From: Chaetoceros tenuissimus
Taxonomy: Eukaryota > Bacillariophyta > Thalassiosirophyceae > Chaetocerotales > Chaetocerotaceae
Length of the DNA stretch: 64,000 bases
NCBI GenBank assembly: GCA_021927905.1
Contig: BLLK01000045.1
Location: 2,108,001-2,172,000 of the forward strand
Reading direction: 5' to 3'
Shown here: positions 22,101 to 35,917 of the stretch, in pieces
Layout of the letters: the number at the start of each line of letters is the position of its first letter
Position numbering within the stretch: position 1 is the stretch's first letter
The notes under the pieces: generated by a model
Told to the model about the DNA's origin: nothing
Database searches by the model: none
The model's input: the letters and a program-made list of their open reading frames with translations, nothing else
Made by a program: the position numbers and the translations under genes

Positions 22101-22543
22101 CAAAAACAAAATCAGATCTAAAAGTTTTGTGAATATTTATATTCTTGCATTTAGGACGGCATCATTGGTCAAATTGTAAATTCAGCTACAGATGGAGGTA
22201 AGTGCAAATAAATGTGTATCTTTTCTAACACATTTATTTCATATCTAACATCAACTCTATCATATCACAAGAACAAATTCATCATATTTTAGAGGACATA
22301 TTGAGTGAAGGAAGTACTGCTAGACTTGGACGTTCTCAAAAGACAAAATACTTTCGCTTCAATCCTGTCGTTGGTGGACCCGATGATTTTCCAATCGATG
22401 GTACCGATCCAGCTAAGCTTGAGGAGTTGAGTGAAATCACAACAGCATATATGAATGAGCCGGAACAAAAGGCTAAGCTTGATGAGGTTGTCTCTATTCT
22501 TCAATGCAAAAAGCGTGGATGGAAACGTATCTTTTCTCGTTAA
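19196..22543 (+). CDS. Patatin-like phospholipase, iPLA2-gamma (PNPLA8) type, probably plastid-targeted
   Basis: Four exons: 19196-21174, 21249-22062, 22155-22197 and 22293-22543, all GT-AG, giving 1028 aa. The C-terminal 370 aa is a patatin domain in PNPLA8 order: DGGGTRG oxyanion loop formed across intron 1, GTSTG with nucleophile S696, and the dyad Asp D884 in CDGGIVASNP; then HEARTIFPDVPIELVVSCGTG and YFRFNPV, as in human PNPLA8. It should hydrolyse membrane phospholipids without calcium. The N-terminus is a hydrophobic signal peptide ending NSAFAFTTP, matching the AFAP-like cleavage motif of secondary-plastid proteins. The ~600 aa between is acidic and then helical, with no recognised domain; one stretch (residues about 500-600) could be ARM-like. 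Targeting is an inference. Confidence 0.88.
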
Positions 22544-22816
22544 ATTTCAGACTCTCATCTTTGGGAACGATGGATTTATTACATTGGATAAAGTATTTGT
22601 CTCTATTGGAATTGATTTTTTTAAATGTTCTTCAAAGAAACCTTCATTCATCTCTCTAATTTAGCTTTTTGAGCTCGCAGAAAGAAGAGGAAACTTTTCT
22701 TTTTTCATCTCACACACTAACTCTCTAAAATCTAATCCACTCATCCATCCATATACGTATTTTGATCATTTCACTTGCCATTAGGGTGATTCTTACTGGT
22801 AAATTTTCAGAATTAA

Positions 22817-23887
22817 ATGAACATATCTTCTAGAGCTTTCCTTTTTCTGTTTCCAACAATTTTTAGTAAAGGATCTAGCTTTTCTCCAGTTTCATTTCAA
22901 TTTACACCTATCGTCAGAAATCAGTTCTGTAAATACACACTGAGTAGGCCTGTCTCATACTCCACAACAACTAAAATTGCGTACTTAAAAATGAGTAACC
23001 CAAACATAGATGAAGCTTACATAATGTCTCTAACGTATAGAGAAATGCAAAAGCTATGCAAAGATCGTGGTCTGGCAGCCAATGGAAACACTAATGCCAT
23101 ACGTGAGCGTCTCCTTGCTGATAATCAGCAACGACTGCCGGAAACTCCCAAGCAGAAAACTAGAGCATCTAGAAATGAAGATGGTGGAGTACATACCCCT
23201 GAATTGAGTGTGGAAAATTCTCCCTCTAGCAATGAGCTTACAACGCCAAAGAGGAAGACGAGCAAGCCTAAAACCTCATCATCTTCAAGAAAGCGACAAA
23301 AGATTGTCCCAGGATCTTTAACTCCTCCAAAAGACTGGGAATCCATTTGGTCTTTGGTCGAAGAATTGAGGGCTGATAAGTCTGCACCTGTTGATTCCGA
23401 TGGGGGGCAAGAACTTCCTGAAACGCATCTGGGGGAGAAAGTCTATCGCTATCAGGTACTTGTTGCTTTAATGTTGAGTTCACAAACAAAAGATGCTGTA
23501 GTTGGAGACGCCATGAGAAAGTTGCAAAAGCATGGACTTACAGTTGAGAATATTGACGCAACAGACGCTTCTACCCTCAATAGTTTGATCTATAAGGTAG
23601 GGTTTCACAACAATAAAACCAAATACCTGAAGCAAGTCGCTGAGACTCTTATTTCCAAATATGATAAAGATATTCCTAAAACTGCAGCTGAAATGATGGA
23701 ATTGAGTGGCATTGGGCCAAAGATGGCATACATTATTGAAAATATTTGCTTTGGGACTTCCTCAGGAATTGGTGTTGATACTCATATGCATCGTATGTTC
23801 AACGACCTACGCTGGGTTAAAAGCAAAACTCCAGAGCAGACAAGGGAACAACTGGAGGGATGGTTGCCAAAAGATAGGCAAAATTGA
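22817..23887 (+). CDS. NTHL1: Endonuclease III homologue with SAP domain, truncated before the VGFGQ segment
   Basis: 356 aa, intronless. A likely organelle-type leader is followed by a second ATG at residue 59 and a SAP DNA-binding motif (about 69-100, LTYREMQKLCKDRGL). The DNA glycosylase/AP-lyase fold follows: ALMLSSQTKDAVV, helix-hairpin-helix LSGIGPKMAYI with catalytic K302, and GVDTHMHR with D321. These enzymes remove oxidised pyrimidines in base-excision repair. The protein stops at LEGWLPKDRQN, exactly before the conserved segment that in all close relatives reads (I/V)N.L(L/W)VGFGQ. That segment is found 10.4 kb downstream (34328-34585). The iron-sulfur cluster cysteines are absent from both pieces. 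Whether the truncated enzyme still folds is unknown. Confidence 0.88.
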   Translation: MNISSRAFLFLFPTIFSKGSSFSPVSFQFTPIVRNQFCKYTLSRPVSYSTTTKIAYLKMSNPNIDEAYIMSLTYREMQKLCKDRGLAANGNTNAIRERLLADNQQRLPETPKQKTRASRNEDGGVHTPELSVENSPSSNELTTPKRKTSKPKTSSSSRKRQKIVPGSLTPPKDWESIWSLVEELRADKSAPVDSDGGQELPETHLGEKVYRYQVLVALMLSSQTKDAVVGDAMRKLQKHGLTVENIDATDASTLNSLIYKVGFHNNKTKYLKQVAETLISKYDKDIPKTAAEMMELSGIGPKMAYIIENICFGTSSGIGVDTHMHRMFNDLRWVKSKTPEQTREQLEGWLPKDRQN

Positions 23888-23979
23888 AGTTGGACTATAT
23901 CGAACGAGTATACCAGTTTATGTCTAAGTGTATATAAATAGAGACTTAGCTTATAAACACAATACTTGACACATTGATC

Positions 23980-25797
23980 TTACATATTTTCTAGCGATTT
24001 CTTTCTCTCCTCTTCTTCCTTTTTTACAGCTTTTTTCACATAATCTTTGATTATCGCTTTCATTCCCTCTACATATTTGATACACAATCCTTTCTTTTTT
24101 ACTACTTTCAATTCCATTGCAGCTTCGAAAGTCTTCCAATGATATAGATCGCCAGATAGTTTCTGCCTTGTGATGATCAAGTCAATTTTAGATGGATCGT
24201 CTTTATTCTTTCTGAGGACAAAGGCACAATCTGCTATTGGTTTCATTGGCATTATTCCCAAATAAAGTATATAAATGATGACAAGGTAACATGGATGGAT
24301 GAAAATGAAATATACAAAAGACAACCATGACCTAGCAATTGTCTGCTGAACTGGTACTCGTCCAAATCGGAATCTTGTCACCCCTCCTCTTTGTTCTGCC
24401 TCAGTCAAAATGAAAACTTCTCCATTGCATTCTCTTTCAATCTTATCCATTTCATTCTTGCATGATTCGTATAGAGGTTCATCTGTCTCTGCTAATACAT
24501 ACATTGCATTTTTTTGAGGAACCATCCTTTCTTTTCCAGCCCTGTCGGCAGGACTACGTAGGGTAGCTTGTTCCTGTGCATATCGTCTAATATTGTCATA
24601 TTTGACTATTCCATATGGATCTTCCTTCACAAGAGCGATACATAGTAGTTCATGAATTCTATAATCATACCCACTTGCATTCATAATAACATGGTCTTCC
24701 ACGAGTGAAGCGCAATATCCACCACCATTGGGCAAGAGATCAGACGTATCTAATTTTGACTTTTGAACAAGTACAGGTGCAAGTTTCAGATGTTTGACAT
24801 TTGTCCATTTCTCGAAGTTTGCACGCGATTTCATTTTCGCAATAATGACAAGCTTGTACTTCTTTCCTTTATACTTGCTAACATTCTTACCATGAATTGT
24901 ACATTCGAAACGTTTTGCAAATTCGTCTTCATCAATCTTGCCATTTTGTAATTCTTGAATAAATTTGTACAAGACCACGGGTAAATCCTTATTTGTCAAT
25001 GGAGGTGCTTTGTTATATTTCACTTTTGCATTCGGATCATCTACGAAATTGACTTTGACTGGCTTATCTCTCTGTCGTTCGAGAGTGAACTTTCCATCAT
25101 TCTCTAGAGACTCATTGTTGAAGGGTTGATAGGCATGGTCATTGAATTGACTAATATCAAATGGCAGGTTCTCTTGGTCTTCTTCGCTATACATCTTCTC
25201 CATGTTTCCACCCCTCTCCATGTGAAGCCGATACAATAGATTATTTTTCAATGGTTGATCAGGGAGCGGTGGTAACTCTCCTGCTCTGAGCTCATCAATC
25301 GTTGCATCTGCTGCTTGTAGTTGAACCCTGGTGGTAGCAAGTTCTGAGTTTGAGATTGTTAGCTTGTTTTGGAGATCTCGTATCAGTGCATGGAGCTGTG
25401 TCTTTTCATTTGAATCAATAGACGCACTGCCTTGTGTTGTTGCTTGGCTTGTTAGAGGTGAGACTTGATCATTCATTGAAGTTGGATGGCAATCCATCAT
25501 CGATTCATCAAGTGAGTCGTGAGAGAGTGATTTAGTATCATTCTTGAGGTAGTCAGGATTAGGTACAAGACTCTCGTTGGATAGAGAATTGTCACTGACT
25601 TGTCTGTTTTCCTTGTCTAACGTTGGACTGAATGCTAGAGAAGATAGATTTTGCTTCAATGAGTTGTCATTGAATTGTACAGTCGACTGGTCTGCCTTTC
25701 TCTTACGATTCAAGAATGAAGCAAGAAGTGGACTACCAGCACATCGTTGTGTCCGCTGCTTTTTAGCAGAACTTGTGTTCTTACCATTGCGAAACAT
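23980..25797 (-). CDS. Unknown 605-aa protein (block gene 1)
   Basis: Not recognised. The first ~130 residues are basic and Ser-rich with an NLS-like NRKRKAD; a Gln/Leu coiled coil lies near 135-175. The ordered part (about 230-490) contains KGKKYKLVIIAKMKSRANFE and NAMYVLAETDEPLYESC; the last 60 aa are Lys/Glu-rich. Near residues 490-528 an out-of-character hydrophobic segment (SWLSFVYFIFIHP) begins. It could be a 120-nt retained intron (24331-24212): the 3' end TTTGTCCTCAG is an excellent acceptor, removal keeps frame (565 aa), but the donor GTCATG is weak. Convergent with the truncated NTH (92 bp). Probably nuclear, by composition only. Confidence 0.65.
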   Translation of the reverse strand: MFRNGKNTSSAKKQRTQRCAGSPLLASFLNRKRKADQSTVQFNDNSLKQNLSSLAFSPTLDKENRQVSDNSLSNESLVPNPDYLKNDTKSLSHDSLDESMMDCHPTSMNDQVSPLTSQATTQGSASIDSNEKTQLHALIRDLQNKLTISNSELATTRVQLQAADATIDELRAGELPPLPDQPLKNNLLYRLHMERGGNMEKMYSEEDQENLPFDISQFNDHAYQPFNNESLENDGKFTLERQRDKPVKVNFVDDPNAKVKYNKAPPLTNKDLPVVLYKFIQELQNGKIDEDEFAKRFECTIHGKNVSKYKGKKYKLVIIAKMKSRANFEKWTNVKHLKLAPVLVQKSKLDTSDLLPNGGGYCASLVEDHVIMNASGYDYRIHELLCIALVKEDPYGIVKYDNIRRYAQEQATLRSPADRAGKERMVPQKNAMYVLAETDEPLYESCKNEMDKIERECNGEVFILTEAEQRGGVTRFRFGRVPVQQTIARSWLSFVYFIFIHPCYLVIIYILYLGIMPMKPIADCAFVLRKNKDDPSKIDLIITRQKLSGDLYHWKTFEAAMELKVVKKKGLCIKYVEGMKAIIKDYVKKAVKKEEEERKKSLENM

Positions 25798-26068
25798 TAC
25801 GTATGGATCAATTGAAGTTTTGTATGAAGAAACAAAGTGTGGTTTGGTGATACTAATTCCATTGATTCTATTGCTGTCTGAGGTCTGTGTGCCTGCTTTT
25901 TGATTTTGTTCCTGAAAGTGAGAATCCTTTGTGTACGTACTTAGTCATACTATTCCGTTGTTTCTTTTCCATTCCTATTCAACTTGTTTTTTAACCGTCA
26001 CAAAACAATTTTTGATTGAACTCCGCTGTAAAAGATGTTAGCTGTAAATGTTTAGTTGATTATATTAA

Positions 26069-28721
26069 TTAATAGAATGAATTACGAAAAGCTTTGAGTA
26101 TACCTCTTTTATCTTGTACGACACTTTTCACAGGGTCAAACCGTTCTTTTACTGGTTGAATGTTACAGTCGTTGCAATTATCAGTATCCACAGATTCAAC
26201 TTTGCGTTTCTTGGTGGTGGTGTTAGGTTCGTATAGAAACGATCTGTCTTCCACTATTTTGGGACAACGACTAGCTCCCCATGCAACCATATTGAAATCT
26301 TCGACGGCTATTCCAACGCTTCTATTCGCTTGAATAGTTATTGGGACTGCAGTGCAATGAGTCATTATTGCCGCATAGAAGAAGTGGTAGAGATTAGAAC
26401 AGCATCTCAACGCAACACCTAATCCAGGAATCAAAAAATGCGCATGAAAGTTGGAATCTGTTTTGGTTTTTCCAAACTGTACAGGACTGTAGCCGCAGTT
26501 AGATGGTGCAGGAATACAACCATCACATAGATCAATTAATGAACTGATAAATCGTAATTCTTCCTTGAGTGTGACATCGTCTGTATTTTCGTATTCTCTC
26601 ATGATATCAAATGCATGGCTTGTGAACTCTTTCACTAGATAATCCTTGTCAATGTGAATAGAATTCTGAAACCCATCGGTGTTCTCTCCAAAAGTCAGGA
26701 TACTCATAACACAGTGTCTACGAAAGTCACTATGATTTTGTCCAAGACCAGCTCTTTCTTTCACTTTCGTAATGAAGAAATCCAGTAGCGGATTTAACAT
26801 TGCCATTGTATCACTAGCTTGACATGTCAAACGATTCAATAGCTTAAAAAAACTTGGACCATACGTACTGTCCCACTCTTGTCTATCCAGTTGGAAATAC
26901 GGGTTCATATCTGGAGAAGAACTAAGTATAAATTTTGGATAATGATCGTTAATCAATGATTTCAAGGATTGACATGACATGAATTCGAAAAAATACTCAC
27001 TCAGGTTTTGGAATTGCTCTTGCACTCAATTTGCACCCACCGTAAAAATTACCTCCGGTTGATTCGCATACATCTCGTCCATCGCCGTAGGTACTACCTC
27101 TTGTAAAATTTCGGATACAAGTGTAATCATCTTCTGTCACTGTATAGATTTTATCATCCACAATAGAGTGGGACAGTACAACGCCGTATCCACGAGAAAA
27201 CACTTCCCAATGTTCCATTGGTTCCTTGCAGACAACTTCTTTTATCACTTTCATTTGCTTTCTTCTTTCATCTACCTTGTAAGTGAACATAAGACCTTTC
27301 CTGTACTTGGCTACGTCATAACACCGTAGTTTAAGTTGGTCACGGTCCTCAAGAAAGCAATTGAATTCTTCTATGGATGATTTCAAGCTAGTGAAATCTT
27401 TTGACTTAGCTTCATTCTTATTTACTTTCGCATATGTTTGCATCCAGCGATTCTGAGATTCGATTTCTCTGACTACCGGGCACCATAACCCAGAATCTTT
27501 TTCATTATATTTCAGCAGATGTTTCGGTCCAGCGATAATGACAATGGTAGTCCCTGCCTTTGCAACACTACCTCGTTTTTGATTTGACTGACAGTAATTC
27601 ATGAAACGAGGGAGAGGGTCAACTTCACGGGTAGCCAGTGACTTAGAGTTTTTCATGGACTTGCCATTACTTATTTCTTTCGAAATAAAGTTTTGGACAT
27701 TATCAAGATCTTTAGATCGAAAACGGGTTGTCGTTGGATAACAGTCTTTCTTAGCTTTAGCTAATAGACGTCTTACATCTTTCTTTAATTCTTTTCCATT
27801 CTTCGCTTTTGCAATCACAGATTTAGAGGACATCTTATCAGGACCAAGAAAAGAGCCCACTACAAAGCCATCATAGACAGATTCGTGGGTTACTTCATTC
27901 AATCCAACTAGCGTTACTTCATCTAGCTGGAAATGTAAAAGAGAGTTGAATCCCTTCACCCCTCTATGACAGGGAATAGCCTCATACAGAAACACTTGCG
28001 AATTGTCGATTCCTGCAACAATCCCAAACCTCCATTCGAGTTCGTTAATCTTGGTAGCTTCACTTGCCTTAACAATGACCTTTACAGTAGCGAATGCAAC
28101 TTTCAATCCACATCCTTGGGAAGGGATACTGGTATAGCTCCTTGAACCAACAAAATAAGTTCCATTTGGTTTAACCATCAGGGCTAGGTAAGGTATTCTC
28201 CTGTAATAACATCTCGCTTCAAGAATAGATGAATTGGCAGAAGATAGGTTAAACAATATAGAGGTACCCGAATTTTGACCGAATAGAGTCTTCAAACGAT
28301 TCTTCAATGATTTTTTTTCACAGAGCTCTCTATCGATAGAAAATTTCATCATTGCTGCAGCAAGATTCATATGGAATTCTAACGACCTGAAGTGCAAATA
28401 GCTCATTTTTTGGTATTCGTTTTTTCCTTTACAGGAAATGATTACAGAATCCGAATCTTCTAATGATCTTGTAACATGATATTCTTTACCCAAGAGTACC
28501 ATTGTTTTCTCAAAGGCAACAGTCAAGTCCTTCTCTAGCTGCACTTTCGGGATATCTACTTGAGAGACACTAGAAAGATCTAGAACTTCTCCATCTTTTT
28601 TAACAATGGAAACTTTATTTTCATTTGTATCGACTGACAGGACATAATACTGATCCGAAGATGCGATCCTCTTCACAGGTGTACCTGGTAGAGTAGATTC
28701 AGATGGAATCATCTCTTCCAT
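26069..28721 (-). CDS. Large protein with C-terminal 2-oxoglutarate/Fe(II) dioxygenase-like domain (block gene 2)
   Basis: Exons 28721-27001 and 26921-26069, intron of 79 nt (GTGAGT...CTTAG), 857 aa. The N-terminal ~570 aa have no recognised domain. The C-terminal region has the layout of double-stranded beta-helix dioxygenases: iron ligands H663-x-D665 in FQNSIHIDKDYL, a predicted core strand GLGVALRCCSN, distal H762 in THCTAVPITI and, eleven residues on, an Arg followed by Ser (ANRSVGIAV), the usual 2-oxoglutarate anchor spacing (H..xPVxxGxRxS). TET/JBP-type and prolyl-hydroxylase-type enzymes share this pattern; TET/JBP-like enzymes are known to travel with transposons in fungi and algae. 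Assignment is by motif only. Basic, Lys-rich patches could bind nucleic acid. Confidence 0.6.
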
Positions 28722-29276
28722 GTGCTTGCGGAAAAAAATAGAAATTTATTTAGTCAAATCATGTGTGTTTCAACATTCGAATGAACTCATTGTATCTATT
28801 TCTCGTTTGAATATCTGATGTTGGAACGGTTTAGAACCGAAAGCCTAAAGACTTTCCCTCCTAAAGCCACCGTAATGACCTGAGTGCAACTGTAGGAGTT
28901 CAACACTGAATTCGAGGATCCCTCTCACTTATTCAAACGAGAAAAGATACATATATTATTAACGGATCAAAGGCTTGACCTAATTCTAATCACTTACTCC
29001 GGAATTTTTCTTTATCAGACTGCTCATAAACAAGTTTTATTTCATTTTGAGAAAGTGTTTCAAAAGCGCTATGATACTACTACATACTACTACTGTATGG
29101 TGCTCAAGCACATGATAGGTAGATACTTACGCACTTACTTATACAAAAAAGATTAAGACATAGAAGGGAAAGAGAGAAGGAGCTTTACAAAAAATCTTTG
29201 ACACCTATAATTTTTTGTATCTTTTCATGCATCAAACACACCCTTCTCATTTTCTGTTGAAATAACATTAAAAATC
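28722..29276. promoter_or_regulatory. Divergent promoter region of block genes 2 and 3
   Basis: 555 bp between divergent starts. There are short direct TACTACTAC runs at 29078-29094. No ORF or RNA gene seen. Confidence 0.35.
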
Positions 29277-29888
29277 ATGAATAATCAAGATATTAACCAT
29301 AGAGCTGAAGAAGTAGCTGCCACCGTGATTGGAGACATCGATAGATTGTCCAATAACTTGCGTGATGCTGTGAGTATTGGCTCTTTAGAGCGGGCAAGAG
29401 CTGAGTTATGGAATGCTCATCAAGATTTGATCGGTCTAAAAGCTAGGGTAACTGAGCTTCAGAATCTTCTTGAAGCTGATCAAAACCATCAGGTTCCGGT
29501 ACCGCACCAGCAGCCTCAGGAAGCACCATACATTCCAGACGAAAGAGACCGAGTAATCTCTGTATGGCAAGTATCTCTCGAAAACAGTCGTGCTACCATG
29601 CCAGATCAACGTTCTCATATTGCACATGTGAAGAATTTCCTCTCCAACCTCCAAACATATGTGAGGACAAGAGATGGAGGTGAAAATTTCGTAGTGAGGT
29701 ATGGGGGCATCCGTCAAGCGCAGCCATGGAACGGATTCCATCATGCTGTAGTCAATGTTACAATGTTCGACGAAGATGGGAATGCTCATCAGTTTGGAGA
29801 TGAAGGCTGGGGCATGTCTATTAGAAATGCCGAGAAAGCAGCAGTGTTTAATCTCTTTCAGAATGATGGAGGATTTTTTGAAATATAA
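29277..29888 (+). CDS. Small unknown protein (block gene 3)
   Basis: 203 aa from an ATG, intronless. The N-terminal ~70 aa is an acidic amphipathic helix/coiled coil (DIDRLSNNLRDAV, GLKARVTELQNLLEA). A Gln/Pro linker (about 72-90) follows. The C-terminal ~100 aa appears globular: FVVRYGGIRQAQPWNGFHHA, VVNVTMFDEDGN, then GWGMSIRNAEKAAVFNLFQ. This strand-strand-helix order with a final Ala-rich helix vaguely recalls a double-stranded-RNA-binding fold, but the key Lys residues are not convincing. Antisense overlap with block gene 4. Confidence 0.6.
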   Translation: MNNQDINHRAEEVAATVIGDIDRLSNNLRDAVSIGSLERARAELWNAHQDLIGLKARVTELQNLLEADQNHQVPVPHQQPQEAPYIPDERDRVISVWQVSLENSRATMPDQRSHIAHVKNFLSNLQTYVRTRDGGENFVVRYGGIRQAQPWNGFHHAVVNVTMFDEDGNAHQFGDEGWGMSIRNAEKAAVFNLFQNDGGFFEI

Positions 29889-30212
29889 GGTATGATCCAA
29901 AACATCATGCTGCTCTTCAGGATGAATATGATAAACCGCTTCATTCTCTACTAAATTCATGACTTGCAGCTGATTGGTGGCTAGTTCCCTTTTCTCCTCT
30001 TCAATCATCAAATGTTTTTGCATCAGTTTCTCTTTTTTTAAAACTTCTTTTTCTCGACATTTTTGGAAGAAATCCTTGAATTCTCCATATGTGCCGCGAA
30101 GTTTGGTGTGAGGTTTCACATTCTTTTGAAGGTGCAATTGCTCTTCGTTAAAGTTTCTAGAGAGATCAGAGAGTACTCTCTCGTTGTCAATCTTTGTCCT
30201 TTTGCGGTACAT
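29436..30212 (-). CDS. Possible small coiled-coil protein (block gene 4), 3' end uncertain
   Basis: From the ATG at 30212 the frame runs 258 aa. The first ~115 aa (to about 29890) have ordinary coding character with a Lys/Glu-rich helix (FKDFFQKCREKEVLKKEKL). The remainder is exactly antisense to block gene 3 and is Cys/His-rich and probably not translated. Either this gene ends by an unrecognised splice near 29900 or it is a remnant. Function unknown. Confidence 0.35.
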   Translation of the reverse strand: MYRKRTKIDNERVLSDLSRNFNEEQLHLQKNVKPHTKLRGTYGEFKDFFQKCREKEVLKKEKLMQKHLMIEEEKRELATNQLQVMNLVENEAVYHIHPEEQHDVLDHTLYFKKSSIILKEIKHCCFLGISNRHAPAFISKLMSIPIFVEHCNIDYSMMESVPWLRLTDAPIPHYEIFTSISCPHICLEVGEEILHMCNMRTLIWHGSTTVFERYLPYRDYSVSFVWNVWCFLRLLVRYRNLMVLISFKKILKLSYPSF

Positions 30213-30480
30213 TAGAGTTACTGTTTCATGAAACGATTCATTAGAGGTAATGAATTTGCTAATTATTAAAAGGATTCTTGCTCTCAGCAAGTGAAGTGTT
30301 GTGTCTTGCTAGCTTGCCATCTGTTCAAAAACGTGATTTTTGTAGATACCAATACAAGTACATACGAAGAAAGTTGACTTTTCTCCTATCCCAATGTGGA
30401 TTCAAGACTCCAACACGTGAAAGTGTGTAACAAGCAAAGCAATACTATAGTTCCATTCAATTCAAAAGGTACAACAAAAG

Positions 30481-31304
30481 ATGGAAAGGTGTAAGAAGAA
30501 CATTAAGGCACTGAAAGAGCAAGAACTCGAAAAAGAAAAGGCTGAAATAGAGGCAATGAGAGCGAAGAGAAAGATGCAAGAGAAACAATTAAAGATCATG
30601 AAAAAGGATCTCCCTCGTATCCAAGCAGACAATGAAAAGGCATTGAGAGATATTCATGAACTTCAGCAAAGTATCAACAACCATAAAACTACTTGTTCTG
30701 CGGATGTTATTGAGAAGATGCAGGGTATCGAAAATCTTGATCGAGAATTTGTAGAACAGCTTTCAAAGCAGAAGCAATTGAAAGACGCTCAGAGCAAGTT
30801 GAAGGACGACATTGCTGCTCTCAAAGCGTCGACAACGCAGGAGATTTCTATGCATGAAAATGCAAAGAATGATATTTTCGTAACAACCATCAACCTTGAA
30901 AAGAGATATGCTACAATCTCGAGAAAAAGCAGGGAAGTCGAAGAAAATATCAAAAAGACAAAGCTTGAGCTCACCGCCGAAAAGATTACCCTTGAAAAAG
31001 TAGAGCGTGGAGCTGCAATCATCAAGGACACTATGCAACGTGAGAAAGAATTACTTGGGTTCAAACAGTCTTGAGGGCTTCAAATTTCGGTCTATGGTAA
31101 AGAATGAATTGGGGATTAGATGCACGAGAGACATTCGAAGACGAAAGGAATATCAGTAGAATCGATATTTCTACACGAAATAACATCAATCCCAAGTTTT
31201 TCTCAGAGTCAAATGACCATATAGAAGAAAATGAAGACGAAGCTTCTGGTGATGAGGATGAAAACAATGTCGAAGATCTATTGACCCAAATGACTACATA
31301 CTAA
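30481..31304 (+). CDS. Coiled-coil protein with acidic tail (block gene 5)
   Basis: Best model: exons 30481-31039 and 31120-31304 with an 80-nt intron (GTGAGA...GATTAG), giving 247 aa; without splicing the first frame ends at 31074 (197 aa). Nearly all of exon 1 is a continuous Lys/Glu/Gln-rich coiled coil (heptads from about residue 5 to 185). Exon 2 adds a strongly acidic tail (ENEDEASGDEDENN). Such proteins can act as structural or chromatin-associated subunits; no family is recognised. The splice model is supported by intron size like its neighbours and by preserved phase. Confidence 0.55.
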
Positions 31305-31456
31305 AGATAATTACATAAGAAACATATAATGTAATCAACTCTTGACTATATTCTCATAGTAATAGTGTCTTATTAGTAGGGGTCCCAATACCTCTATCTA
31401 TATTTATGTTACTGTCTTTCAATACCTCTTGAATTTCCACAAATTGACAATCCTCT

Positions 31457-33944
31457 TTAGATTTGTTCGATATTTCCTCCAAGAATTTGGTGGAACTCTG
31501 ACCAGACATCCTGATATGCTCTATCTTGGTCGTCTAGTGGTGGCATAGCATTCATCCCACGAGCTTCACCAAAGCCTTGGTTGTTGTTGTTGTCTACCCC
31601 AAGAGTAGCATCATGATCTAGACCGCGAGCTTCACCAAAGCCTTGGTTGTTGTTGTTGTCTACCCCAAGAGTAGCATCATGATCTAGACCGCGAGCTTCA
31701 CCAAAGCCTTGGTTGTTGTTGTTGTTGTTGATAACGAGATCCATTCCTTCTATGGTATTTTCTTCTTCGCAAAGAGGAACACTGGAAGAATAACGTGCTT
31801 TCTTTGTTTGCTGAAGATTAGGATCTTCTTGTTCAATACGCTTCCCCAAATCCATTGGTTGATCCTGTTTAGTTGGCTCTGGCTTGGAAGGTGCTGCATC
31901 CTTTTGAGGATCGCAGGATGATTCTTGTGTATTCTCCTCAACAACTTCAATCTGGTTTCTTGAGGAAGCAGCTTTATCCCAAGCAATCGCAGGTTGGATC
32001 TCTTCATAGGAAATGTATGGACAGTATTTACTGAATTTTTTTACTGGTGTAATTGAACGGTTACGCATTCTGTCTACTTCTCTGAGTCGCATCGGTACAC
32101 AATATGGTTTTTCTTGTATGAAAAGACGATCATAATCTTCCTTACTACAGAAGGAAAAACATTTCTCAAGTAGGATGTGTGGAAGGGTGTAAAGTATAGC
32201 ATCTTCAGGTACACTTTCTTCCGAACATTCATAGTATCTCTGTGGCAATGAATATGACTTCTTGAAAAGGCGAAAATCAGCATATTCCTTTTTAGTAAGG
32301 TACTGAAAACATTCTCTTAGTACAGTCAGCGGAAGAGAAAATAACAGAGATTCGTTTGAAGGTTTTGTCTCTTTACCAATATAGTATTGAAGAGCGGGCT
32401 TGCGAATGCTTCTGATGTACTTTTTGTCATCTCCAGTAACATGTCTGATTCCATGTGACTGATGGTACCAGGGACCACTCACGGTTTTGCAACGTGCATG
32501 TTTACGAATATCAGTTTTACTGTTTTCTACCATTTGTCTTTCACTTTTATCCAGCTTTTTCTGTGTTTGCAATTGAAACAATTTGACTGCAATATTTTTT
32601 AGTTTTTGTCAATATGATAGATAGTAAACACTCACCATGTTTACCCGAGTCACACCACAGATACGCAAAGCCTCTTTCTATCATCTTCTGCTTGCAAATT
32701 TCATTCTCACAATAAAGTGCATCACCTTTCTTGGCATTAGCTCTTGTGACTCCGTCAAGAGCAAATTGTAATTGAGCCCCAGCATGAGATCCTATCAATT
32801 TAGAGTCGGTGAATCTACAGAAGAATGGCGCTGTCATACTCATATCGACTACTTCTTCTTTATGATTGCCTTTATATTTGTAGTTGTATGTTTTGTCACA
32901 TACCTTGCAATAAACCCTTTCAGCATAACACAAATCACATGTCAACGTAGACTTGTGACACCATTTTTCCTGCACGATGTCGAATAGTAAAATTCCATTA
33001 CAATCGGTAGGATTGCCAAGCTTACATGGAATCTCCCGTTCGTCAAACCCAATTACTATTGGGTTGTCGATCACAGCTCTTTCCCAGACCAACTCACGAC
33101 TTGTATCCAACTTTTGTGAATAGCGTTTCACTATTGATTCGATTTCATGGTCAGCTATGGAAGCTATGGATGCAACCTCATCTTCTGAATCTGAAAGCTC
33201 ATCTTCTGAATCTGATTCTACGGCAGTAGTATCTGAATGTTGCTGAATAGAATGAGATGGATCAACGTTGGTACCATCTTTATAGAACTCGTAATCTTCT
33301 TCGAATGATGTGTATATCGAATGAAGAGAACTAGAAAAGACTTGTGGGTGGTATTCCTTGAGTGTTTCAAAAACCTTGCAGATAGTTTGGAATGGAACAA
33401 CCTCTGATTTCTCTCCTATGCTTCCAAAGTATACATCTTCTGTAGGAATTGGCAGAATTCTTTGTGGAGAAATTAGGTCCTTTTTTCCTGTCTTCTCATT
33501 GTATTGTTTTCCTGGAGCCGTAGATACATAGTGGTAACCATCTTTAATTTCATATTTCAATTTATACAAAACAAAATAGATTTGTGTGAAGTATAGATCT
33601 TCAAATTCAGGGAGGGTTGCGCAGAGACAGGTGAATTCGAACGATGTCATTGGGATTTGTATACCATGCACAGTTGGTCTATAAAAACAAAGTTTCCTTC
33701 CTTTTGGGACAGGTTCATGCAATTTGACTGCATTTTTCATAGAGTGTAGAAGTTTTAGCTGCACATAAGATGGCTCGGACCGGTATTTCGTATTTGCTTT
33801 CAGACAGCTCTTTTTTTCATGAAGGTATAAGAGACGTATAAACTGTGATGGCAAGTATATGTTGTTAGTTTTAATAATATAGAGAAACAAAAAATTAATA
33901 AAAATGTATCAATGTCTCACCTTCTTGTGTACGTCGCTGCCCAT
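31457..33944 (-). CDS. Unknown 786-aa protein with zinc-ribbon-like Cys clusters (block gene 6)
   Basis: Three exons: a 24-nt first exon (33944-33921, MGSDVHKK), 33842-32636 and 32586-31457; introns of 78 and 49 nt (GTGAGA...TCACAG; GTGAGT...TTGCAG). Residues about 80-200 look globular (YRPTVHGIQIPMTSFEFTCL), followed by an acidic Ser/Asp/Glu spacer (about 225-240). Cysteine clusters at about 315-405 (CDLCYAERVYCKVCDK; CENEICKQKM) suggest zinc binding. The C-terminal third has two similar units, LPLTVLRECFQYLTKKEYAD and LPHILLEKCFSFCSKEDYDR, resembling F-box-like helices. An Asn-rich 22-residue repeat array sits near the end. No known family. Confidence 0.65.
31561..31734 (-). repeat. 66-bp coding minisatellite in block gene 6
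   Basis: Units start at 31561, 31627 and 31693 (GAGCTTCACCAAAGCCTTGG), with the first two units virtually identical. They encode 22-residue repeats (NNNNQGFGEARGLDHDATLG core). Length is a multiple of three, so the copy number can vary without a frameshift. Confidence 0.9.
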
Positions 33945-34000
33945 TCTCAAAATGTATCAATTAAAAAAGTAGTAATATTGAAGGTCTGATAATATATTGG

Positions 34001-34153
34001 ATCGGAAGAGGTACTGAAATAGCACGTCTAGATGAATGTAGGTGTGTGTATTGTTTGGTTCGTGTTTTCGTTTCAATCGGAAGAGGTACTGAAATAGCAC
34101 GTCTAGATGAATGTAAGTGTGTGTATTGTTTGGTTCGTGTTTTCGTTTCAATC
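34001..34153 (+). repeat. 75-bp tandem duplication
   Basis: Two copies beginning ATCGGAAGAGGTACTGAAAT at 34001 and 34076, differing at about one position (GTAGGTGTG versus GTAAGTGTG). Non-coding, in the 383-bp interval between block gene 6 and the NTH C-terminal fragment; it lies about 200 bp inside the right edge of the candidate inserted block. Confidence 0.9.
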
Positions 34154-34327
34154 AAAAGCCTGAGGAAGAGTAGCTCATAACCTTTAGAATCGAAAGACAG
34201 AGTGAATATGTTGATAGAACGCTTGTGTCTTTAGATTATCTCTAATTTGAATAGGAGTGGAACTCAACTGAATCAAATATCAATTTACTAAAAGCTGTGA
34301 GAGGAGCATCGTTGCAATGCGATTCGA

Positions 34328-34585
34328 ATGTATTCGGAAGAGATCTTTGCAGAGCTTCCAAGAGAAAGAATTTCCCAATGCGAGGTCAACTATTTGTGGG
34401 TTGGATTTGGGCAGGAGATTCAGCAACAAAAGGAAAAGATGCTCCGGAAAGCTCTTAAGTCAAGTAGACCACTTGAAGCATTGAAACTATTGAATAAAGT
34501 TGGGCTTAATGTAAAGAAAGAAGCCAAAAGATTTGATTTGGAGAAAGAGGTTGCAGATGTCTACAAAAGCGCGAATCAGAATTAA
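34328..34585 (+). pseudogene. Orphan C-terminal fragment of endonuclease III
   Basis: 85 codons from an in-frame ATG. From about residue 10 it reads LPRERISQCEVNYLWVGFGQ and continues with a Lys/Leu-rich helical tail. The VNYLWVGFGQ stretch is the conserved C-terminal Nth signature (plants INPLLVGFGQ, human INGLLVGFGQ) and is precisely what the NTH at 22817-23887 lacks; strand is the same. No catalytic residues or FeS cysteines are present, so it cannot be an enzyme by itself. The frame remains open, which suggests a recent event or continued expression. The first nine residues have no NTH resemblance. Its stop is 17 bp from the next convergent gene. Confidence 0.7.
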
Positions 34586-34602
34586 TTTAATTCCGAGAAT
34601 AT

Positions 34603-35475
34603 TTATTTTACTGAACTATCTGCAACTATACCCAATTTTTTTTGTTGTACAGACTTTGGGAGTTCGTTTGAATATGTCCTCTCGACATAACTCTCCACAA
34701 ACTGCCTCTTTTCTCTACCAAATGAAATTAGAATTGTATCACATGTCGGAAGGGTTTTTTCAAGTAGAATACGTTTTATAAACAATGCTTTGGTGTCGGA
34801 ATATTGTGCCAGTGTCAAGCTTGATCTAGGAGAAGGATCTTTAACGTTGTCAAGACCATCAAACTCAACCAGTTCTGCCAATGACTCAATAATTTCGATG
34901 GCAGCATTGTCAAAGAGAGCTTTCTGAACTTTCAGTTTTCCCTTCTCATCTGCTTTAGTTATAACTTTCATTTCATTCTTGTAATAATCTGAGTAATAAC
35001 TTTCCAAGTCTTTGATGCATCCACGTATTTGGAACGAAGCCAGATTGTAAACTTGAGAATTTGCTCCACCCCCTACTTTCTTGGTGAGTGCTGCTTTTGC
35101 TCCGAGTCTTGCTTCGAGATATGGACCTTTATTTACATCGGATGTAACGGGTCCTTCATCTATTTTTTGTTGTATTTTCAATGCTACATTTTCACTCCAA
35201 TAGCGTACACGTAATATGTTCACTAGGCAAAGTTCAAGCTGCCTACGTTCCTCTTTTTCAAATAGGGAAATTGCATTGACGTTTTCTCCAATAAGCAAAG
35301 ATCCAAAAGAAACACTCGCAATTTTTAAGAATTTCCTTCGATGAGGAGAAATTTTTTGTAATGGTTTCGTTAATGTAGTAGATATCCGTCTATCAAGTAT
35401 GGAGAAAGATTTACAGGGTTGTAGAATTGTGAGGAAGATAGCGATACCAAGTAGCCATTTTTGTGCCACAGTCAT
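34603..35475 (-). CDS. Predicted thylakoid-lumen protein with twin-arginine signal
   Basis: 290 aa from the ATG at 35475. The N-terminus is a signal peptide ending PCKSFSILDRR (a phenylalanine after the cleavage site, as in diatom plastid precursors), then a basic transit region, then RRKFLKIASVSFGSLLIG, a twin-arginine-type second signal. This tripartite leader predicts import through four plastid membranes and Tat export to the thylakoid lumen. The mature part (about 70-290) is helical with no cysteines of note except scattered ones (GCIKDLESYYSDYY, DNAAIEIIESLAELVEF), resembling four-helix PsbQ-like lumenal proteins only in general shape. Function unknown; targeting inference is good. Confidence 0.75.
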   Translation of the reverse strand: MTVAQKWLLGIAIFLTILQPCKSFSILDRRISTTLTKPLQKISPHRRKFLKIASVSFGSLLIGENVNAISLFEKEERRQLELCLVNILRVRYWSENVALKIQQKIDEGPVTSDVNKGPYLEARLGAKAALTKKVGGGANSQVYNLASFQIRGCIKDLESYYSDYYKNEMKVITKADEKGKLKVQKALFDNAAIEIIESLAELVEFDGLDNVKDPSPRSSLTLAQYSDTKALFIKRILLEKTLPTCDTILISFGREKRQFVESYVERTYSNELPKSVQQKKLGIVADSSVK

Positions 35476-35917
35476 CACCTTTTCTCTAGCTTACTTTGCC
35501 TTCTTGCTCTATCTGTTTTGAAAAAATACTGAGACTCTGCAGTGAATGCTAAAATATATAATTGTTTGAAACAAGAGTTGTGAAGTGTTGATGATTGATG
35601 ATAGAACAAGGTAGAATATGATAGAAAAGTGAGAAGTGGAAAGATATGAAAAAACTATGGAGGTAGGATCAGTAAGAAGTAGGATGCCATTCGTCCTACA
35701 ATAAATTCTGTAACCTGTTTTTCTTCTTCCCACTGTCTGTAAACCCCTTTTCCACGCAGGCCAGCTTTTATTCCTTCTTCGTTGCTTCATCAAAACGATC
35801 ACACGATCACAATCAGTCTAATTCTGGACTGTTCCTATTCTTATCAACATTGCATAGTTCTAATCGAAGAACAAAAGCGGACCATCGTCAAACTAACAAC
35901 GAAATAATACTTGAAAT
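35476..35917. promoter_or_regulatory. Divergent promoter region, lumen protein / UBE2J genes
   Basis: About 440 bp between divergent starts. No distinct element beyond short TGATTGATGAT repeats near 35585-35605. Confidence 0.35.

Follow-up and report, generated by a model that had tools for sequence, protein, structure and literature searches.

The window analysed here is a stretch of 64,000 nucleotides from the diatom Chaetoceros tenuissimus (C32:2108001-2172000; contig BLLK01000045.1), within which a gene of the endonuclease III (NTH) type lies in two pieces separated by 10.5 kb of other DNA, most of which is also present elsewhere in the same genome. All comparisons with diatom DNA were made within this one assembly (68 contigs; 41,027,912 bp searched), and the match counts obtained from whole-genome searches are lower bounds.

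The divided NTH gene and its paralogues

The 5' part of the gene (22817-23883, forward strand), delimited by an open reading frame (ORF) call, the Pfam domain HhH-GPD and alignment with human NTHL1, belongs to a frame of 356 residues (22817-23887) that runs on into the insert and meets a stop codon at 23885-23887. Profile searches conducted with this frame returned HhH-GPD at E 1.2e-22 (80.7 bits against a curated Pfam cut-off of 26.2) and the NCBIfam profile nth (TIGR01083) at E 5.6e-30, yet with 104 bits the latter match fell below its cut-off of 212. Alignment with the NTHL1 chain from the PDB (E 1.7e-50) stops at WLPKD, residue 211 of the 257-residue chain, leaving 46 residues of the human protein beyond its end. 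Residues K302 and D321 of the window frame, which we take to correspond in role to the catalytic lysine and aspartate of the Nth family, align with NTHL1 at the catalytic positions. The gene thus resembles endonuclease III and NTHL1 in its HhH-GPD domain, its lysine and aspartate and its alignment, and differs in being cut before the C-terminal segment. That segment does not follow contiguously after LPxx; it is taken up again 10,497 bp further downstream, with strand and order unchanged, where a severed piece (34381-34585, forward strand) was recognised by its matches to the tails of the two paralogues described below and by its in-frame join to 23883. The lysine and aspartate are kept but the C-terminal segment is gone, and we infer that the window NTH has probably lost its function.

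The proposal of the earlier note that an NTH gene is split at this locus is therefore upheld, the N-terminal part ending at WLPKD and a complementary tail lying downstream in the same orientation and order. Its point of resumption needs adjustment: the missing segment is indeed downstream, but begins at 34381 rather than 34355, a boundary displaced by about 26 bp, and the stretch ELPRERISQC that precedes 34381 forms part of a repeat (block R) and not of NTH. As NTH restarts at 34381, the insert occupies 23884-34380, a length of 10,497 bp. When 23883 is joined to 34381 the flanks read EGWLPKDRQNEVNYLWVGFGQ, in frame and with the spacing of the unbroken paralogue (KDR-QN-EVN as against KDK-WG-EIT), which is what would be expected of one gene cut once, and from which it follows that at most six NTH bases were lost. 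At the joint the unbroken paralogue has W, as presumably does NTHL1 beyond its aligned part, and the joined window reading has Q, so that up to six bases there may be insert and not NTH.

Splicing offers one way in which the gene might still work, the 10.5 kb being removed as one exceptionally long intron that has genes nested in it; pairing a GC donor (AG/GCAAAA, 23876-23883) with an AG that precedes 34359 would bring the pieces back into frame and add four residues. Such an arrangement would be highly improbable, given that the joint itself carries no GT-AG pair, that the stop at 23885-23887 precedes any downstream GT donor, that genes lie on both strands inside, and that the only intron measured, in the paralogue, is 76 bp long.

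A query made with the NTH tail found three places in the genome, and one made with the N-terminal part gave 11 matches, the four strongest of which fall in the same three genes: the window gene, C59:787650-788632 and C32:2064984-2065875. The last of these, located approximately 65 kb from the window gene on the opposite strand, consists of two exons with a 76-bp GT-AG intron, reads unbroken ESWLPKDKWGEITKLFVGFGQ, and served as a stand-in for the empty ancestral site. It is the one NTH-type gene of the three found that still looks intact, a circumstance that amounts to a testable prediction on base-excision repair in C. tenuissimus. The C59 copy is a pseudogene, in which NTH can be read as far as FNDL, the tail thereafter being out of frame. 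A profile search placed HhH-GPD matches at nine places in the genome, those beyond the three NTH-type genes being more distant glycosylases. Two of the HhH-GPD matches, at C1:74063-74497 and C29:829612-830046, are equal in score and frame length and, C1 being a 75-kb contig, may reflect a haplotype that was not merged, or else a recent duplication.

The four-cysteine iron-sulphur motif was found neither in the window tail from EVN on (34381-34585) nor in the tail of the intact-looking paralogue (C32:2064984-2065190), both of which are free of cysteine. This motif is not universal in the endonuclease III family, and the cysteine-free tails, that of the intact paralogue included, suggest that the NTH type of this diatom lacks the cluster; in its want of cluster-ligand cysteines the window gene again differs from endonuclease III and NTHL1, as does its paralogue. 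A literature search on diatom endonuclease III and base-excision repair gave nothing relevant, and the available excerpts of papers on C. tenuissimus contained no NTH under the terms looked up.

Make-up and ends of the insert

The limits of the insert (23884-34380) were set from genome matches and from the alignment of the joined flanks. Its first and largest portion, block A (23884-29202), has a copy at C34:1415821-1421149 (93.7%), and the first part of this block (23903-26005) has a second copy at C34:1508463-1506343. Block X (29203-29886), for which the genome search found no other copy, is followed by block B (29887-34241), copied in reverse at C34:1499352-1495052 (about 90-91%), and, overlapping the latter, by block R (34077-34380), a cut-off copy of a dispersed repeat; parts of 34076-34380 match eight other places. 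Block X excepted, the same DNA is thus present elsewhere in the genome throughout the insert. Within C34:1490-1508 kb three counterparts follow one another in the order of the window, 23903-26005 corresponding to 1508463-1506343, 29887-34241 to 1499352-1495052, and 34232-34380 to 1490518-1490367. A gene for a Ulp1-type protease is cut off at about 29880, the left edge of block B, and is longer at C34:1498985-1500733 and C34:2160487-2162424 (Peptidase_C48). Since its blocks correspond to separate C34 loci, since C34 holds additional DNA, and since the protease gene is cut off, the insert is a mosaic and a full copy of neither C34 locus.

With complementary flanks, an uninterrupted paralogue and insert DNA copied elsewhere, there can be little doubt that one large insertion broke one gene, and to this extent the earlier note, which had proposed insertion of a large element or a rearrangement, is sustained; a single complete transposable element is not supported, the insert being a mosaic that ends in a cut-off repeat. 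The multi-copy nature of the insert families might be taken to favour an assembly error that placed unrelated DNA into NTH. This also appears very improbable: most of the insert differs by several percent from its nearest copies, a chimera would require NTH to start again at the complementary base, and the published assembly combined Nanopore and Illumina data at 150-fold coverage, according to the excerpt available (PMC8613185).

Neither joint showed the features by which a transposable element would be delimited. No match between the flanks was found at the joints, and the imperfect 15-mer proposed earlier as a target duplication is to be set aside, its best agreement of 11 of 15 bases being equalled by 38 of 300 shuffles and its right-hand member lying in the insert and not in the host. 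Comparison of the first with the last 300 bp of the insert gave only chance-level matches and hence no terminal inverted repeats, and no pair resembling long terminal repeats occurred among the repeats listed. At curated cut-offs no transposase, integrase or reverse transcriptase of a known type was detected in seven insert ORFs with Pfam, or in six of these with NCBIfam.

The right end is a truncation. In seven of the eight other copies of block R the shared sequence continues beyond 34380, the position at which the window switches to NTH, and comparison of seven copies with that at C42:331 showed it to end at one point, 87 bp past 34380, in five of them; the remaining copy (C21:1110) diverges at approximately the same place as the window. 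The left edge coincides to the base with that of the block A copy at C34:1415, and in the C34:1508 copies similarity breaks off 10-20 bases further on.

The lack of a target duplication and of inverted termini, the truncated right end and the multi-locus make-up argue for capture during repair over transposition, and capture is regarded as probable. Capture of genomic or retrotransposon DNA at breaks has been described in mouse zygotes (PMC4516963), where, as far as the available excerpt goes, foreign or duplicated DNA is likewise joined into a break without the signature of a mobile element; the present case differs in comprising a 10.5-kb mosaic with whole ORFs in a finished genome, its mechanism being inferred.

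An alternative origin would be a large undescribed multi-gene mobile element with machinery of its own, the target duplication of which was never made or has been lost and the ends of which have since eroded. The insert gene families do recur at several loci, in varied combinations with the Ulp1-type protease and other large ORFs, and the left edge shared with the C34:1415 copy would suit such an element. It is nonetheless considered unlikely in view of the missing inverted termini and target duplication, a right end that lies inside a repeat which goes on elsewhere, the insert ORFs devoid of transposase, integrase or reverse transcriptase domains (Pfam, NCBIfam), and the fact that no locus was seen with the same end-to-end composition.

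The tract shared with the C59 pseudogene

Alignment offsets showed the C59 pseudogene to be without 88 bases across the same place when compared with the joined window flanks. From 34393 to 34500 (forward strand, 108 bp) the window and C59 are identical (0/108 differ); of the next 85 bases 20 differ, and upstream 157 of 869 differ, the longest identical run there being 38. At the divergence rates of these flanks, 108 identical bases would arise with a probability of 4.5e-10 or less. The two copies thus exhibit an abrupt tract of identity within otherwise diverged sequence, the pattern by which interlocus gene conversion is recognised, and the 108-bp identity is, as judged from these alignments, a gene-conversion tract beginning at the C59 deletion junction. 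Outside the tract, the N-terminal part and the unconverted end of the tail are similarly identical to C59 (~82% and ~76%, respectively), as would be the case for one gene. These values bear on the notion that each window piece is left over from a separate truncated NTH copy and that the two came to stand in order by chance; the genome has two other NTH-type genes from which such remnants might derive, and yet the pieces complement each other in frame, with a margin of six bases at most, which makes this exceedingly improbable.

The N-terminal parts of the window gene and of C59 gave a ratio of nonsynonymous to synonymous divergence (dN/dS) of 0.26 (dS 0.62), which suggests that constraint acted on both during much of their evolution. 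No convincing synteny between the C59 locus and the window was found outside the NTH gene. Conversion was also suggested between copies of the insert: in 150-bp steps, block B is 98-100% identical to its C34 counterpart, from C34:1499236 downward, over 30057-31706 and then drops abruptly to 73-96%, a patchiness that marks out 30057-31706 as a second likely tract.

Interlocus conversion between duplicated segments is documented in human (PMC3790853, PMC4467073), and the excerpts available describe a comparable short tract of full identity within diverged paralogues; the present case differs in that a fragment cut from its gene would act as donor and in that the partner carries a deletion at the tract.

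The account preferred overall, and held with moderate confidence, is that one of three NTH genes was broken by a single 10.5-kb insertion of dispersed DNA of the same genome, captured during repair, and that conversion with C59 followed. As a first step, duplicated DNA from within the genome would have been captured, or copied as a template, in the repair of a double-strand break in NTH. As a second, a break in C59 would have been repaired from the severed window tail; because the middle of the gene is no longer next to that tail, conversion and deletion would have occurred in one event, the lesion being passed to a second paralogue, and a single repair of this kind would explain why the tract starts at the deletion. 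Conversion in the reverse direction would need a prior deletion in C59. The chances that deletion was coupled to conversion, and that the window was the donor, are rated as even.

Three points weigh against this account. Firstly, the tracts of the window and of C59 are equally far from the intact paralogue (80/103 each), so that the direction of conversion cannot be read, and the C59 deletion may have come first. Secondly, the left end is common to the insert and the C34:1415 copy, as a natural end would be, and truncation is evident at the right end only. Thirdly, the highly conserved tryptophan after LPxxx is missing from the joined reading, which has QN there, and up to six bases at the joint may be insert or filler. 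On the account preferred, the event itself is ordinary in kind and its record unusually legible: duplicated DNA broke a repair gene, and the severed piece may then have acted as template for damage to a paralogue.

Gene families of the insert and minor observations

The principal ORFs of the insert lie on the reverse strand. The 605-residue ORF (23980-25797) belongs to a multi-copy family with no Pfam domain. The 318-residue ORF (26069-27025) overlaps that of 574 residues (26997-28721), and the two are perhaps one gene with an intron; the latter has no Pfam domain, and its 96% identical relative at C34:1415 contains one stop. The 374- and 447-residue ORFs together occupy 31457-33890, the former with a weak F-box match below cut-off. 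Pairwise dN/dS estimates against C34 copies, with introns left in, were 0.08 for the 318-residue ORF, 0.26 and 0.19 for the halves of the 574-residue ORF, 0.48 and 0.54 for the 605-residue ORF (0.90 for two partial copies), 0.86 and 1.03 for the 374- and 447-residue ORFs, and 0.12 for a 197-residue ORF, for which dS was only 0.018.

Genes related to those of the insert, and to the genes beside them on C34, occur together again at C54:969-981 kb and at C34:2154-2162 kb, their order differing between loci. A two-gene unit (452-513 plus 1004-1014 residues) is present at C54:968954-973794, C34:2154149-2159191 and C34:2455202-2459960, is fused as a frame of 859 residues at C34:1500903-1503479, and lies near the Ulp1-type protease and other cassette genes. 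Among the cassette proteins scanned with Pfam at E 0.01, the only domains found were that of the Ulp1-type protease and, as a weak match, a RING-like one. In the 1014-residue family GYG.HQDST ... GNQ.NL.H ... RLVMTARR is invariant in four sequences; its HxD...H...R pattern resembles by eye that of Fe(II)/2-oxoglutarate dioxygenases, a likeness that profile searches did not confirm. Fungal DNA transposons that carry TET/JBP dioxygenases (PMC12730594) are, in the excerpt available, similar in forming many-gene loci and in the pattern just described, and differ in that no transposase, inverted ends, 8-bp target duplication or dioxygenase profile match was found here.

A more speculative proposal, also rated as unlikely, is that the insert represents part of a large, as yet undescribed modular mobile element of diatoms, with interchangeable cassettes spread by recombination and conversion and without fixed ends, the broken NTH having passed its lesion to a paralogue. 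The cassettes in question are the Ulp1-type protease, the unit of 452-513 plus 859-1014 residues, and the 605-, 447/374- and 197-residue families. If these families constitute one mobile system, this locus would offer, for its study, an occupied site whose reading frame is known, and their shuffled combinations of genes without known domains provide an open lead.

In viral contigs, relatives of the 605-residue protein amounted to 16 pattern matches, none of which was confirmed, and the 574-residue protein had none, these being the insert proteins sought there. Searches of the PDB gave best E values of 0.1 or worse for the 605-, 447- and 1014-residue proteins and no match for the 574-residue protein or for a four-sequence profile (A1). 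Structure models of the 318- and 605-residue ORFs, folded without relatives, were unusable (mean pLDDT 32.9 and 35.9). No Rfam family was detected in 22500-35500 and no tRNA in the whole window.

A subtelomeric nature of block R was considered and not relied on: seven of its 12 other places (eight from the first genome search and four from a later one) are no more than 31 kb from the end of a contig, but on only four contigs, one of 15.8 kb. Ten of 11 contig ends examined are without a telomere array, and C42 ends in TTAGGG repeats.

The 318-residue ORF contains IHIDKD ... MTHCTAVP ... R, which by eye resembles Fe(II) dioxygenases and is without profile support in Pfam or NCBIfam. Tandem arrays are present in the insert at 31560-31725 (66 bp, 2.5 copies) and 34001-34153 (75 bp, 2 copies). 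Between the counterparts of blocks B and R, C34:1490519-1495051 comprises 4.5 kb not in the window, with one ORF of 1292 residues and no Pfam domain; an imperfect 16-bp inverted repeat at its ends (14/16, weak) and TTATCT repeated at both sides suggest that it is perhaps a DNA transposon. At C34:1508069-1511540 a unit of 1157 bp, corresponding to the 3' end of the 605-residue gene, is repeated in three tandem copies that are 99.9% identical.

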